12,272 nt of DNA. Source: Pseudomonadota bacterium (GTDB lineage Bacteria; Pseudomonadota; Gammaproteobacteria; Burkholderiales; Burkholderiaceae_C). Below the pieces are notes generated by a model. The model was not told the origin of the DNA. It did no database searches and saw only the letters and a program-made list of their open reading frames with translations. Both the position numbers and the translations under genes were made by a program. The stretch lies in assembly GCA_023460715.1 (NCBI GenBank), contig JAEWPH010000309.1, positions 1 through 12,272 on the forward strand, given 5' to 3'. Position 1 is the stretch's first letter. Each line of letters begins with the position of its first letter. Below, in pieces: positions 4,980-7,512 of this stretch.

Positions 4980-7388
4980 CTAGCGGCTGCGCGCAAAGTC
5001 CACGTACCACCCCAGGCACGCCGGATTGGCCATGGCATCGCGGTTGACCACCTTTTCCAGAGGCTGGCCCAGCAACAGCTTCTTGATGGGCAGCTCCTGC
5101 TTCTTGCCGGTGAGCGTGCGCGGCACCTCGGCCACGGCAAAGATGTCGTCGGGCACGAAGCGCGGCGACAGCGCCGTGCGGATGGCGCCGGCGATGCGCT
5201 GGCGCAGGGCGTCGTCCAGCGCCACGCCGCTGCGCAGCACCACGAACAGCGGCATGTAGCTGTCGCGGCCCAGGTATTCCAGGTCGATCACCAGGCTGTC
5301 GAGCACCTCGGGCAGCGCCTCGACGGCGCGGTACAGCTCGCTGGTGCCCATGCGCAGGCCGTGGCGGTTGATGGTGGCGTCGCTGCGGCCGTAGATGGTG
5401 CAGCCGCCGTGGGCGCCCACCTTGAGCCAGTCGCCGTGGCGCCAGACGGCGCCCATCTCCGCCGGGCCGTCGCCGCCGCCGGGAAGCCTTCCGTGACCGG
5501 CCGGGTACATGTCGAAATAGCTGGCCAGATAGCGCGGGCCGAATGCGTCGCCCCCACGCTCCCCCACTGCGTGTGGGTCGCTGCCCCCCGAGGGGGCCTT
5601 CGCACCTTGGGGCGGCCCGGCGGTGCTCACTTCGCCCCCACGCTCCCCCACCACGTGCGGGTCGCTGCCCCCCGAGGGGGCCTTCGCACCTTGGGGCGGC
5701 CCGGCGGTGCTCAAGTCGCCGCCCCGCTCCTCTCCAGCGTGTGCGTCGTCGCGCACGTCGCCCCAGAAGTACAGCGGCATGGACGGCAGCGGCTGCGTGC
5801 AGACCAGTTCGCCCACGGCGTCGACCACCGGGCGGCCCTCGGCGTCCCAGGCTTCCACCGCCGCGCCGAGCATGCGGCACTGCATCTCGCCGGGCACCTG
5901 GGGCAGCTCGCGGTGGCCGCCGATGAAGGCGCCGCAGAAGTCCGTTCCGCCCGAGATGTTGTCCCACCAGATGGGTTCGCCCCCACGCTCCCCCACTGCG
6001 TGTGGGTCGCTGCCCCCCGAGGGGACCGCGCCTTGCTTGGGGCGGCCCGGAGCGGCGGCGGCCGGGACGGTGGGCACGGCGCGCAGGCGCTGGAACTGCT
6101 CGGTACCCCACTCCTGCACCTCGGGCGAGAGCGGCGAGCCCGTGGTGCCCAGCGCCCGCACGCGGGAGAGGTCGCCGCAGTCCGCCAAGGTCAGGCCGGC
6201 CTTCATGCAGCTGGCATAGAACGCGGCGCCGGCGCCGAAGAAGGTCACGCCGGTCTCGGCGGCAAAGCGCCACAGCGTGCCCCAGTCGGGCCGGTCCTTG
6301 CTGCCGCCCGGGTTGCCGTCGTAGATGACGCAGGTGGTGCCCGACAGCAGGCCGCTGACCTGGGCGTTCCACATCACCCAGCCGGTGGAGCTGTACCAGT
6401 GGTAGCGCTCGCCGAAGCTGTTGGCCTCGTAGCTGCAGCCGATGTCGTTGTGCAACACCTTGAGCTGCAGCGCCACCAGCAGCATGCCGCCGTGGCCGTG
6501 CACGATGGGCTTGGGCAGCCCGGTGGTGCCGCTGGAGTAGACGATCCACAGCGGGTGGTCGAACGGCACCCAGCGCGGCGCGAAGGCCGCCGTTTCTGCG
6601 TCGTTTTGCCCTGTAGCGCTTGTGTAGCTTGCGCAGTCAGCTATGTTTTTTGCAGTACCCAGCTGGTCCACCACGATCACATGCTGCAGCGTGGGCAGCT
6701 GCGCGCGCAGTTCCTCCACCACCGCGGTGCGGTCCAGGTCGCGGCCGCCGTAGGCGACGCCGTCCACGGTGATCAGCACCTTGGGCTCGATCTGGCGGAA
6801 GCGGTCGAGCACGGCCTGCGTGCCCATGTCCGGCGCGCAGATGCTCCAGATGCAGCCCAGGCTGACGGTGGCCAGCAGGGCCACCATGGCCTCGGGAATG
6901 TTGGGCAGATAGGCCACCACGCGGTCGCCCGGCTGCAGGCCCTGGCGCTGCAGGTGCAGGGCAAGCGATGCGACCTGCTGGCGCAGCGCGGGCCAGGGCA
7001 GCTCGCGGTGCCGGCCTTTCTCGTCGCGGCTCACCACCGCGGGCAGGCCGGCCGCGTGGGCGGCCTCGACATGCCGCAGCGCCTGCTGCGCATAGTTCAC
7101 CTGCGCGCCGGGAAACCACTGCGCCCCCGGCATGGTGTTGCGGGCCAGCACGGCCGTGTGCGGCGTGGGCGACTGCAGGTCGAAGTAGTCCCACATCGAC
7201 TGCCAGAAGGCATCCAGATCGGTGACCGACCAGCGCCACAAGGCCTGGTAGTCGTCGAACGCCAGGCCGCGCTCGGTGCGCAGCCAGTCCTGGTAGAGCC
7301 GCATCTGCGGAACGAACGGGGGGGTGCCGGCCCCGCCCGCGGCCGGGTGCGCCGTCTCGGCGGATGGTTGTTGTCTGCTTGTCTCCAT
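4980..7388 (-). CDS. aacS: Acetoacetyl-CoA synthetase with in-frame repeat insertions
   Basis: Cytosolic ANL-superfamily enzyme that activates acetoacetate with ATP and CoA, feeding ketone-body or polyhydroxybutyrate breakdown products into acetyl-CoA metabolism. Motifs are intact: P-loop YSSGTTGLPKPI (284-295), GTTGSPLSPEV (414-424), ISGGTD (478-483), HGDWL (651-655), hinge/core YGRSDATINRHGLRMGTSELYR (about 666-687), and TGKKQELPIKKLL (760-772) with the expected catalytic-lysine region. N-terminal WFPGAQVNYA and the C-terminal ANPACLGWY are AacS-like. At 802 residues it exceeds the usual 650-670; the surplus lies in four segments, about 245-263, 441-471, 546-616 and 630-647, three of which correspond to DNA repeats. 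The ATG at 7388 fits the family N-terminus; GTG 7469 and ATG 7424 are also in frame. Whether the enlarged enzyme is active is unknown, but no stop or frameshift interrupts it. Confidence 0.88.
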   Translation of the reverse strand: METSRQQPSAETAHPAAGGAGTPPFVPQMRLYQDWLRTERGLAFDDYQALWRWSVTDLDAFWQSMWDYFDLQSPTPHTAVLARNTMPGAQWFPGAQVNYAQQALRHVEAAHAAGLPAVVSRDEKGRHRELPWPALRQQVASLALHLQRQGLQPGDRVVAYLPNIPEAMVALLATVSLGCIWSICAPDMGTQAVLDRFRQIEPKVLITVDGVAYGGRDLDRTAVVEELRAQLPTLQHVIVVDQLGTAKNIADCASYTSATGQNDAETAAFAPRWVPFDHPLWIVYSSGTTGLPKPIVHGHGGMLLVALQLKVLHNDIGCSYEANSFGERYHWYSSTGWVMWNAQVSGLLSGTTCVIYDGNPGGSKDRPDWGTLWRFAAETGVTFFGAGAAFYASCMKAGLTLADCGDLSRVRALGTTGSPLSPEVQEWGTEQFQRLRAVPTVPAAAAPGRPKQGAVPSGGSDPHAVGERGGEPIWWDNISGGTDFCGAFIGGHRELPQVPGEMQCRMLGAAVEAWDAEGRPVVDAVGELVCTQPLPSMPLYFWGDVRDDAHAGEERGGDLSTAGPPQGAKAPSGGSDPHVVGERGGEVSTAGPPQGAKAPSGGSDPHAVGERGGDAFGPRYLASYFDMYPAGHGRLPGGGDGPAEMGAVWRHGDWLKVGAHGGCTIYGRSDATINRHGLRMGTSELYRAVEALPEVLDSLVIDLEYLGRDSYMPLFVVLRSGVALDDALRQRIAGAIRTALSPRFVPDDIFAVAEVPRTLTGKKQELPIKKLLLGQPLEKVVNRDAMANPACLGWYVDFARSR
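5448..5501 (-). other. Unexplained Gly/Pro-rich extra segment in aacS
   Basis: Residues 630-647 (AGHGRLPGGGDGPAEMGA) interrupt what in other AacS proteins is a short link between MYPG and VWRHGDW (family knowledge from memory). The DNA contains GGAAGCCTTCC and TCCGCCGGGCC (5458-5468). The latter 11-mer also occurs at 4010-4020 in the intergenic repeat island, though in such GC-rich DNA this could be chance. Confidence 0.4.
5548..5631 (-). repeat. 84-bp in-frame repeat in aacS, tandem unit 1
   Basis: This unit is 84 nt (28 codons) and encodes STAGPPQGAKAPSGGSDPH followed by AVGERGG on the minus strand (residues about 587-613). It is nearly identical to unit 2, differing at about five positions. 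Within the DNA, CCCCC-CGA-GGGGG forms a hairpin (about 5584-5596), and CCCAC pairs with GTGGG at the left. Confidence 0.85.
5632..5715 (-). repeat. 84-bp in-frame repeat in aacS, tandem unit 2
   Basis: Second copy of the 84-nt unit, immediately adjacent to unit 1 in the same orientation; it encodes the same peptide with HVVGER in place of HAVGER (residues about 559-585). The exact multiple of three keeps the reading frame open whatever the copy number. Confidence 0.85.
5716..5753 (-). repeat. Degenerate partial third tandem unit in aacS
   Basis: The DNA from 5716 (TCGCCGCCCCGCTCC...) follows the start of the 84-nt unit (TCGCCCCCACGCTCC...) with scattered substitutions. The encoded DDAHAGEERGGD parallels SDPHAVGERGGD of the intact units. 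It looks like an older, decayed copy truncated by the return to normal AacS sequence (FWGD). Confidence 0.55.
5977..6050 (-). repeat. Separate diverged copy of the GC-rich repeat in aacS
   Basis: It shares with units 1 and 2 the block TCGCCCCCACGCTCCCCCAC and GTGGGTCGCTGCCCCCCGAG, then diverges (GGGACCGCGCCTTGCTTGG) before ending in GGGGCGGCCCGG. It encodes GRPKQGAVPSGGSDPHAVGE plus RGGE (residues about 448-471), inserted between EQFQRLR and PIWWDNISGGTD. It is about 260 nt from the tandem pair and in the same orientation and frame. Confidence 0.8.
6601..6652 (-). repeat. Dispersed ~50-bp palindromic repeat, copy B, inside aacS
   Basis: Read on the minus strand: AAAAAACATAGCTGACTGCG, then CAAGCTACACAAGCGCTACAG, aligning with copy A along most of its length, including ATAGCT, CTGCGC and TACACAAGCGCT. 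It is translated in frame as AKNIADCASYTSATGQND (residues about 246-263) just upstream of the AMP-binding P-loop domain. The central stem has decayed (GCGCAAG against CAAGCGC). Confidence 0.75.
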
Positions 7389-7395
7389 GCGGTGC

Positions 7396-7424
7396 AGCGT
7401 AGCGTGCGCCCCGCCGTGCGTCAT
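7396..7424 (-). promoter_or_regulatory. aacS: Possible promoter for aacS
   Basis: On the minus strand ATGACG (7424-7419, 4 of 6 matches to TTGACA) is separated by 17 nt from TACGCT (7401-7396, 3 of 6 to TATAAT). TACGCT ends 7 nt before the ATG at 7388, which would make the mRNA nearly leaderless and agrees with the lack of a Shine-Dalgarno. Confidence 0.3.
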
Positions 7425-7512
7425 CCCGGGATCGTCCCCGGATTGACAGGGCCCGGGCGGAAGGCGCACGCCCCATCAGGGCGGCGTCTGCGGTCCAAGG
7501 ATGTGCACCGCC

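Follow-up and report, generated by a model that had tools for sequence, protein, structure and literature searches.

The 12,272-nt window analysed here (the whole stretch of DNA, from contig JAEWPH010000309.1) carries aacS, the gene for acetoacetyl-CoA synthetase (AacS), in which a short GC-rich repeat is found several times in the reading frame. Our analysis shows that this repeat unit is one copy of a dispersed palindromic element with three hairpins and is not private to aacS. We consider it likely that the element has repeatedly entered coding sequences of the Comamonadaceae, the family of the host, and that the peptide it encodes there evolves almost neutrally.

The initial annotation had described in aacS two adjacent and nearly identical 84-nt units, each of them stop-free and equal to 28 codons, and this description holds. 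Tandem Repeats Finder (TRF) reports an array of period 84 at 5547-5730 (2.2 copies, 92% matches, score 319), the runner-up tandem array in the window scoring 56, and direct reading finds the two units identical at 79 of 84 positions and different at five. Both lie, together with a third full copy missing from the initial copy list, within a single open reading frame (ORF) of 829 residues on the minus strand (4980-7469). The database record that matches this ORF (P0004) has 814 residues, as expected if translation begins at the ATG of residue 16, and the product has the Pfam domains AMP-binding and ACAS_N, with 4WD1, an acetoacetate-CoA ligase, as its best solved relative (E 1.4e-174). A covariance model built from 44 element copies, the window unit among them, recognises the three copies listed in Table 1, whose GC content is 80-81%, and the best remaining match in the window has an E value of 0.1. 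A segment ahead of the tandem units, annotated as a decayed third unit, does resemble the element's 3' half when read by eye, but compared locally with the 3' end of the element it scores 9, under the cut-off of 10, and we regard such an origin as plausible. Assembly error is an unlikely source of the repeat, because the nearest genome (G001), separately assembled as a single contig of 4.57 Mb, has the same three copies in its aacS. The gene also contains an AT-rich stretch (6591-6665), with no length difference among same-genus orthologues; it was considered as a second dispersed repeat and rejected, as similar DNA was found only at AacS loci among the loci examined.

Table 1. Position of aacS and of the element copies within it, in window coordinates.
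Feature	Position	Strand	Basis
aacS, acetoacetyl-CoA synthetase (acetoacetate--CoA ligase), 814 aa	4980..7424	-	ORF, P0004, Pfam, 4WD1
Site 2 unit, second in gene direction; element proper 5550-5628	5548..5631	-	TRF; covariance model, 89.7 bits
Site 2 unit, first in gene direction; element proper 5634-5712	5632..5715	-	TRF; covariance model, 82.8 bits
Tentative decayed 3' half-unit, ahead of the full units in gene direction	5716..5753	-	By eye; also in G001
Third full copy, site 1, immediately ahead of EPIWWDNISGGTD	5979..6056	-	Covariance model, 74.0 bits; nhmmer, 3.2e-15

Searching beyond the window, as had been proposed with the initial annotation, found element matches in 35 of 60 related genomes, 34 of the 36 within the host family (genome sizes 2.6-6.1 Mb) and one of the 24 outside it. 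G001 alone has 17 matches, the three in aacS and 14 more. To judge by its named AacS relatives, the host is probably a comamonad close to Acidovorax/Paracidovorax. When the structure-aware model was applied with strict filters to 300 genomes of the order, matches were seen in 33, nine of them from the host family, which are positives only and carry no denominator for that family, and 24 from nine other families. The element is uniform in size, 105 of 109 copies with both anchors being 78-82 nt long. A search of Rfam with it returned a chance-level match only (14 bits). We also considered whether openness in all frames could be a special trait of the unit, and discarded the idea: the unit is open in five frames, but among 5000 shuffled sequences of equal composition 2909 have five or six open frames, so such openness is nothing special.

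To what extent the copies lie in frame within genes was assessed on stretches around 107 clusters among the matches listed and on other search loci, 126 clusters after removal of duplicates. Each cluster was assigned to a class by a codon model whose training set consisted solely of AacS loci. This sample leans to window-like copies, being made of the best matches to the window unit among the matches listed. By the first rule, 78 clusters are in frame in an ORF that is coding on both sides, while 19 lie on the same strand in another frame, 14 have coding sequence on one side, nine are in the same frame with a stop, and three, two and one are classed as neither, convergent and divergent, respectively. 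Under a stricter rule, which asks for another 30 open codons both before and after the insert, 76 of 126 clusters remain in frame; those removed are L223, an ORF of 49 residues, and L212, where the insert is upstream of the likely rpoN start. After a simulated deletion of one base, a single cluster of the 126 stays in frame. Control positions 0.6-0.7 kb away pass the stricter rule in 151 of 247 cases, so that in this sample the element does not avoid genes. By the first rule, 46 of the 67 host-genus clusters are in frame, as are 28 of the 55 from the family's other genera, the latter count falling to 26 of 55 once the two dropped cases are taken out. The habit is not confined to the host family either, since at L357 and L387, in a genome of family f44 (G237), three units are in frame in a gene; two kinds of locus called in frame in f44 or f21 are doubtful, with a stop just upstream. 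At the dropped locus L212 (in G026), two units in opposite orientation stand just upstream of the likely rpoN start and in frame with it, and they are perhaps an N-terminal extension or a mere leader.

The in-frame clusters fall into 39 host groups by the first rule and 37 by the stricter one, and all 38 representatives scanned (L223 left out, the dropped L212, a sigma-54 gene, included) can be assigned to a Pfam family with an E value of 1e-8 or lower. The hosts include ACR_tran transporters, spermine synthase, Fmt, GcvP, RecG, RecQ, UvrA, LigA, biotin carboxylase, NuoE/F, a class I (ValS-like) tRNA synthetase, MoeA and MurD, and in several of them the insert lies within one Pfam domain, as in the case of a MoCF_biosynth domain spanning 295-462 with the insert from residue 409. 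When the 69-residue insert alone was used as a protein query, 208 proteins matched at E 0.01 or better, and the best 120 of these comprised AacS and 19 other Pfam combinations; TruB, RadA, phosphoenolpyruvate (PEP) carboxylase, a UvrD-type helicase, a MurD-type ligase and RecJ are found among the matches listed, although in some matched proteins the insert is near the N terminus and the start may have been mis-called. In the biotin carboxylase genes of three genomes (L180, L232, L360) the insert occupies the same loop, just ahead of the conserved MEMNTRLQVEHP, and four PEP carboxylases (P0012, P0015, P0026, P0031; 919 to 1056 residues) have multi-unit in-frame arrays just ahead of LRMFHGRGGT. 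One protein of 503 residues (P0053) starts like Fmt and continues like RadA, with the junction at the repeat, and it is either an assembly chimera or a real recombination of two repeat-bearing genes.

Comparison of orthologues shows filled, empty and scarred sites side by side. By our reading of the alignment, copies are present in two of 17 same-genus AacS genes, namely in G001, as in the window, and in G015, with two units at site 1; the other 15, with short loops of variable length, have no recognisable copy at either site, in agreement with the earlier claim that the insert sits in a loop mostly free of it elsewhere. Of the more distant AacS loci, 17 of 80 have a copy: ten at site 1, including three in-frame units in L056, a locus left out of the AacS alignment and tree, five at site 2, possibly an undercount as the site-2 anchor was not found in four copy-bearing loci, and two at other places in the gene. 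When presence is mapped on a tree of 80 AacS proteins, the ten positives at site 1 require nine changes (shuffled mean 9.6), and the six at site 2 require five (shuffled mean 5.8); presence is thus about as scattered as random labels, which fits repeated gain, loss, or both. Copies occur at site 2 in both orientations among loci, which argues for independent insertions. In L031 and L081 the element occupies yet another AacS site, some 0.3 kb downstream of site 1, and is in opposite orientation there. The clearest comparison is offered by Fmt, for which six of 17 genomes are filled (one with a further deletion of 24 nt) and 11 are empty, the filled and empty forms differing by exactly 81 nt. 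A SpeE-like protein is present in 15 of 17 genomes, and the 14 that matched the search pattern show two-unit, one-unit, scar and empty states, so that copy number does vary by whole units between genomes, as first proposed; in G011 just the element's 3' end is left by our reading, and this remnant is a scar of the element.

The hairpins of the element covary. In 44 diverse copies, 89.3% of the cells at the paired positions of the three hairpins pair, with two-sided changes in 13 of 22 pairs. Their covariation score of 0.298 exceeds that of shuffles (0.110) and of slid structures (no higher than 0.075), the latter being a control against which the structure is favoured, having been drawn from the same alignment as was scored. 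The in-frame copies alone (25 rows, which still include cases of the kind later dropped, L223 and L212) have 461 of 523 cells paired and two-sided changes in 12 of 22 pairs. RNAalifold found almost no structure on a MAFFT alignment of 100 copies; the hairpins are visible on the profile alignment and on a second alignment (A2).

At the level of the peptide, little constraint is apparent. Pooled over 15 host groups, each of two or more members, the ratio of nonsynonymous to synonymous change (dN/dS) is 0.92 for the inserts and 0.24 for their flanks, from pairs that are not independent and with values for the inserts of single groups spanning 0.25 to 2.09; in the AacS group the insert value is 0.80. 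A ratio near 0.9 means that the peptide is nearly free of constraint, and the suggestion that the insert may be functional thus finds no support at the protein level. An AlphaFold2 (AF2) model of AacS, computed with 38 AacS sequences (mean predicted local distance difference test (pLDDT) 74.8, predicted template modelling score 0.78), has a pLDDT under 50 at residues 1-30, 296-303, 452-480 (site 1), 552-635 (site 2) and 716-718, and its best Foldseek match is AacS 4WD1, with a template modelling score of 0.86 by target. The two insert segments, in which the model places no secondary structure apart from a helix of three residues, are predicted to be unstructured loops, even though low AF2 confidence is no proof of disorder.

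Taken together, we propose that a GC-rich palindromic element of about 78-82 nt, set in arrays mostly at a spacing of 80-88 nt, enters genes in a transposition-like manner and would be non-autonomous. The surviving copies would be those that meet a permissive loop, have a length that is a multiple of three and offer a stop-free frame, and such copies would then be translated as a Pro/Gly/Ser-rich, probably disordered and nearly neutral loop. Tandem growth in whole-unit steps, which are 28 codons long in the window, and in-frame shrinkage could then lead to longer loops or to short scars. The loops are presumed to be translated and harmless. A bolder extension would be that the element, with hairpins preserved through paired changes and synonymous change below half that of the flanks, is selected as DNA or RNA inside the coding sequences of ordinary bacteria with large genomes, that genes are its normal habitat and the peptide need only be harmless, and that gain, unit-step expansion and scarring are a general route by which the loops of enzymes in this family grow longer; this possibility we put forward tentatively, with the odds against it.

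Several observations do not sit easily with this proposal and weigh against it. In the other families of the order, most of the copies examined are out of frame, the exceptions being in f44. Fmt, our one clean site, shows no target-site duplication between filled and empty forms, the flank frequencies reveal no target consensus, and 30 loci for Y1_Tnp, a RAYT-like transposase domain (REP-associated tyrosine transposase, REP being the repetitive extragenic palindrome), all lack a copy within 1.5 kb. Translation of the inserts is, in turn, read from the DNA. The rates also hold a difficulty, as plain neutral drift does not predict that synonymous change should be lower in the inserts (proportion of synonymous differences, pS, 0.131; of nonsynonymous, pN, 0.121) than in the flanks (pS 0.301, pN 0.087). 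A detection bias toward conserved copies explains part of the low insert pS, but the same difference is present in Fmt, for which all 17 genomes were inspected (pS 0.052 against 0.291 in the four copies compared). Within host groups, moreover, a mismatch is present at 56 hairpin pair-sites and a two-sided change at 23, while 211 are unchanged, in a tally in which two of 18 pairs were mis-set, inflating the mismatches. Much of the hairpin covariation may predate insertion, in the form of subfamilies. As for unit spacing, it is 84 in the window, in the SpeE-like gene of G001 and, for the most part, in an array of six units within a transporter of G002, and by nhmmer hit starts it is 80-88 in 34 of 41 neighbours; by the same measure it is a multiple of three in just 10 of 19 in-frame and five of 22 other cases. 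Hit starts are off by a base or two, however (the aacS pair of G001 reads 83, the true spacing being 84), so these counts neither support nor exclude selection on spacing.

Among the alternatives, the one that fares best, although we consider it unlikely, is that of a REP-type element mobilised by the single-copy RAYT-like transposase of these genomes. Exactly one Y1_Tnp match is found in each of the 22 family genomes searched, the element has hairpins, and transposition by a single-strand route would leave no target duplication. The distance of the copies from the Y1_Tnp loci argues against this view, and the RAYT-like gene is for this reason a candidate agent only; in addition, neither the element consensus nor the flank frequencies, read by eye, show a GTAG or CGTC tag, and the copies are not limited to extragenic DNA. 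As a separate observation, the one Y1_Tnp gene per genome looks domesticated, and this repeat does not flank it.

A rather improbable alternative is that the copies spread by recombination or gene conversion among themselves, and not by transposition of a defined element. Arrays do differ by whole units, and partial 3' ends precede full units in nine of 78 in-frame clusters against one of 78 in a control stretch, with a cut-off that is not strict (for the 5' end, the control stretch passes in six of 78). The empty Fmt sites, by our reading, have no element-like sequence with which to recombine, and the copies are not homogenised: in the host genus, identity between copies from different genes is about 0.83 (0.831 within and 0.832 between genomes), while for copies that share a site in different genomes it is 0.90. 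Concerted evolution is therefore not supported, and the copies are inherited vertically without homogenisation.

Even less probable, in our opinion, is that the insert is a selected loop of AacS, serving regulation, binding or partner docking, which spread because its peptide is useful. In favour of this, the central reading frame is biased, with A/PSGGS on the plus strand in 51, LPPEGA on the minus strand in 17 and PLGGQ on the plus strand in eight of the 78 first-rule clusters (two of which were later dropped), two other frames with one cluster each and the sixth with none, and certain loops, for instance in RadA and in PEP carboxylase, contain copies in many of the proteins in the database. 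Such bias, however, can result from avoidance of Cys-, Arg- or hydrophobic-rich readings, together with the one frame that is closed by a TGA at the element's left end. The dN/dS values given above, the use of both orientations at the same AacS site, and the majority of AacS proteins that do without the insert all speak against a function. Finally, a private tandem duplication in aacS or an assembly artefact, as two adjacent and nearly identical units might suggest, is refuted by similar units in 34 of 36 family genomes and by the same arrangement in G001, and we attach practically no probability to it; of the duplication first described, the tandem units are real, but they belong to a series of many dispersed copies.

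If the element has colonised genes in the manner we propose, some implications follow. Extensive in-frame insertion of palindromic repeats is best known from Rickettsia, whose reduced genome offers an easy explanation in terms of relaxed selection. Here the same phenomenon is common in a family that has genomes of 2.6-6.1 Mb and named members that for the most part live freely, and the proteins affected include MurD, LigA, the ValS-like synthetase, Fmt, RecG and UvrA, each copy adding about 28 amino acids without breaking the gene. Because empty, filled, multi-copy and scarred alleles coexist in related species, the evolution of protein loops by mobile repeats becomes directly testable. Caution is also due in annotation and assembly, where loops borne by repeats can mislead alignments and may create chimeric proteins.

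With regard to known repeats, the element resembles the REP/RAYT system (PMC3733652) in being a short dispersed hairpin repeat in genomes with one RAYT-like gene each, and departs from the description given there in its lack of the tag, of linkage to RAYT and of a strictly extragenic location. Miniature inverted-repeat transposable elements fused in frame to host ORFs have been described as well, among them the 107-bp Correia/NEMIS form of Neisseria, which is abundantly intragenic, ERIC, YPAL/RU-2 and RU-3, and several of these are reported with terminal inverted repeats and target duplications (PMC2229807); in our element neither was found, the one clean site for duplications being Fmt. Closer in description is the Beta-proteobacterial repeat element (BRE) of Hot et al. 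2011, described in passages of that article (PMC3110155) as a repeat of about 90 bp, its Bordetella copies measuring 75-91 bp with a GC content of 63.7-78.9%, arranged in tandem and separated by few nucleotides or none, variable in copy number among strains, and present in several families of Betaproteobacteria including the Comamonadaceae (Acidovorax, Delftia, Polaromonas). The same passages place it "usually in IGRs" (intergenic regions), with some copies wholly inside coding sequences. Unit length, array spacing and distribution, in the Comamonadaceae and nine other families of the order, are all alike, and the GC content of the window copies is just above the Bordetella range. The aacS element and BRE are probably of the same family, as matched by description rather than by comparison of sequences. 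At lexA, one of the Bordetella BRE loci, no clear copy was seen: the best model matches had E values of 0.014 and 0.044 in 21 loci, and nhmmer gave one weak match in 25 loci, in genomes not confirmed to include Bordetella. Section 14 of that article does not mention in-frame translation, host proteins, covariation or scars.

In a literature search of mainly open-access papers, nothing was found that describes this element as inserted systematically in frame, and as far as that search reaches, the systematic in-frame colonisation of Comamonadaceae housekeeping enzymes, with growth by whole units and scars, is new. The closest phenomenon is that of the Rickettsia palindromic elements (RPE; Ogata et al. 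2000), as the initial annotation aptly suggested. In the portions of the literature available on them (PMC2229807, PMC10969869, PMC3733652), these are small palindromic repeats of about 105-150 bp, found in frame in many unrelated conserved genes and translated; Rickettsia gmk with such an element yields a translated product and an active enzyme (PMC2229807), and a similar mechanism in other prokaryotes has been called "conceivable" (PMC10969869). Our element differs, by description and not by sequence, in its GC-rich units of 78-84 nt, and also in its occurrence in larger genomes, its in-frame tandem arrays and its use of mainly two frames, one per orientation. It shares with the RPE the trait for which these are best known, namely that of lying in frame in many unrelated genes, here in 76 of 126 clusters and 37 host groups.

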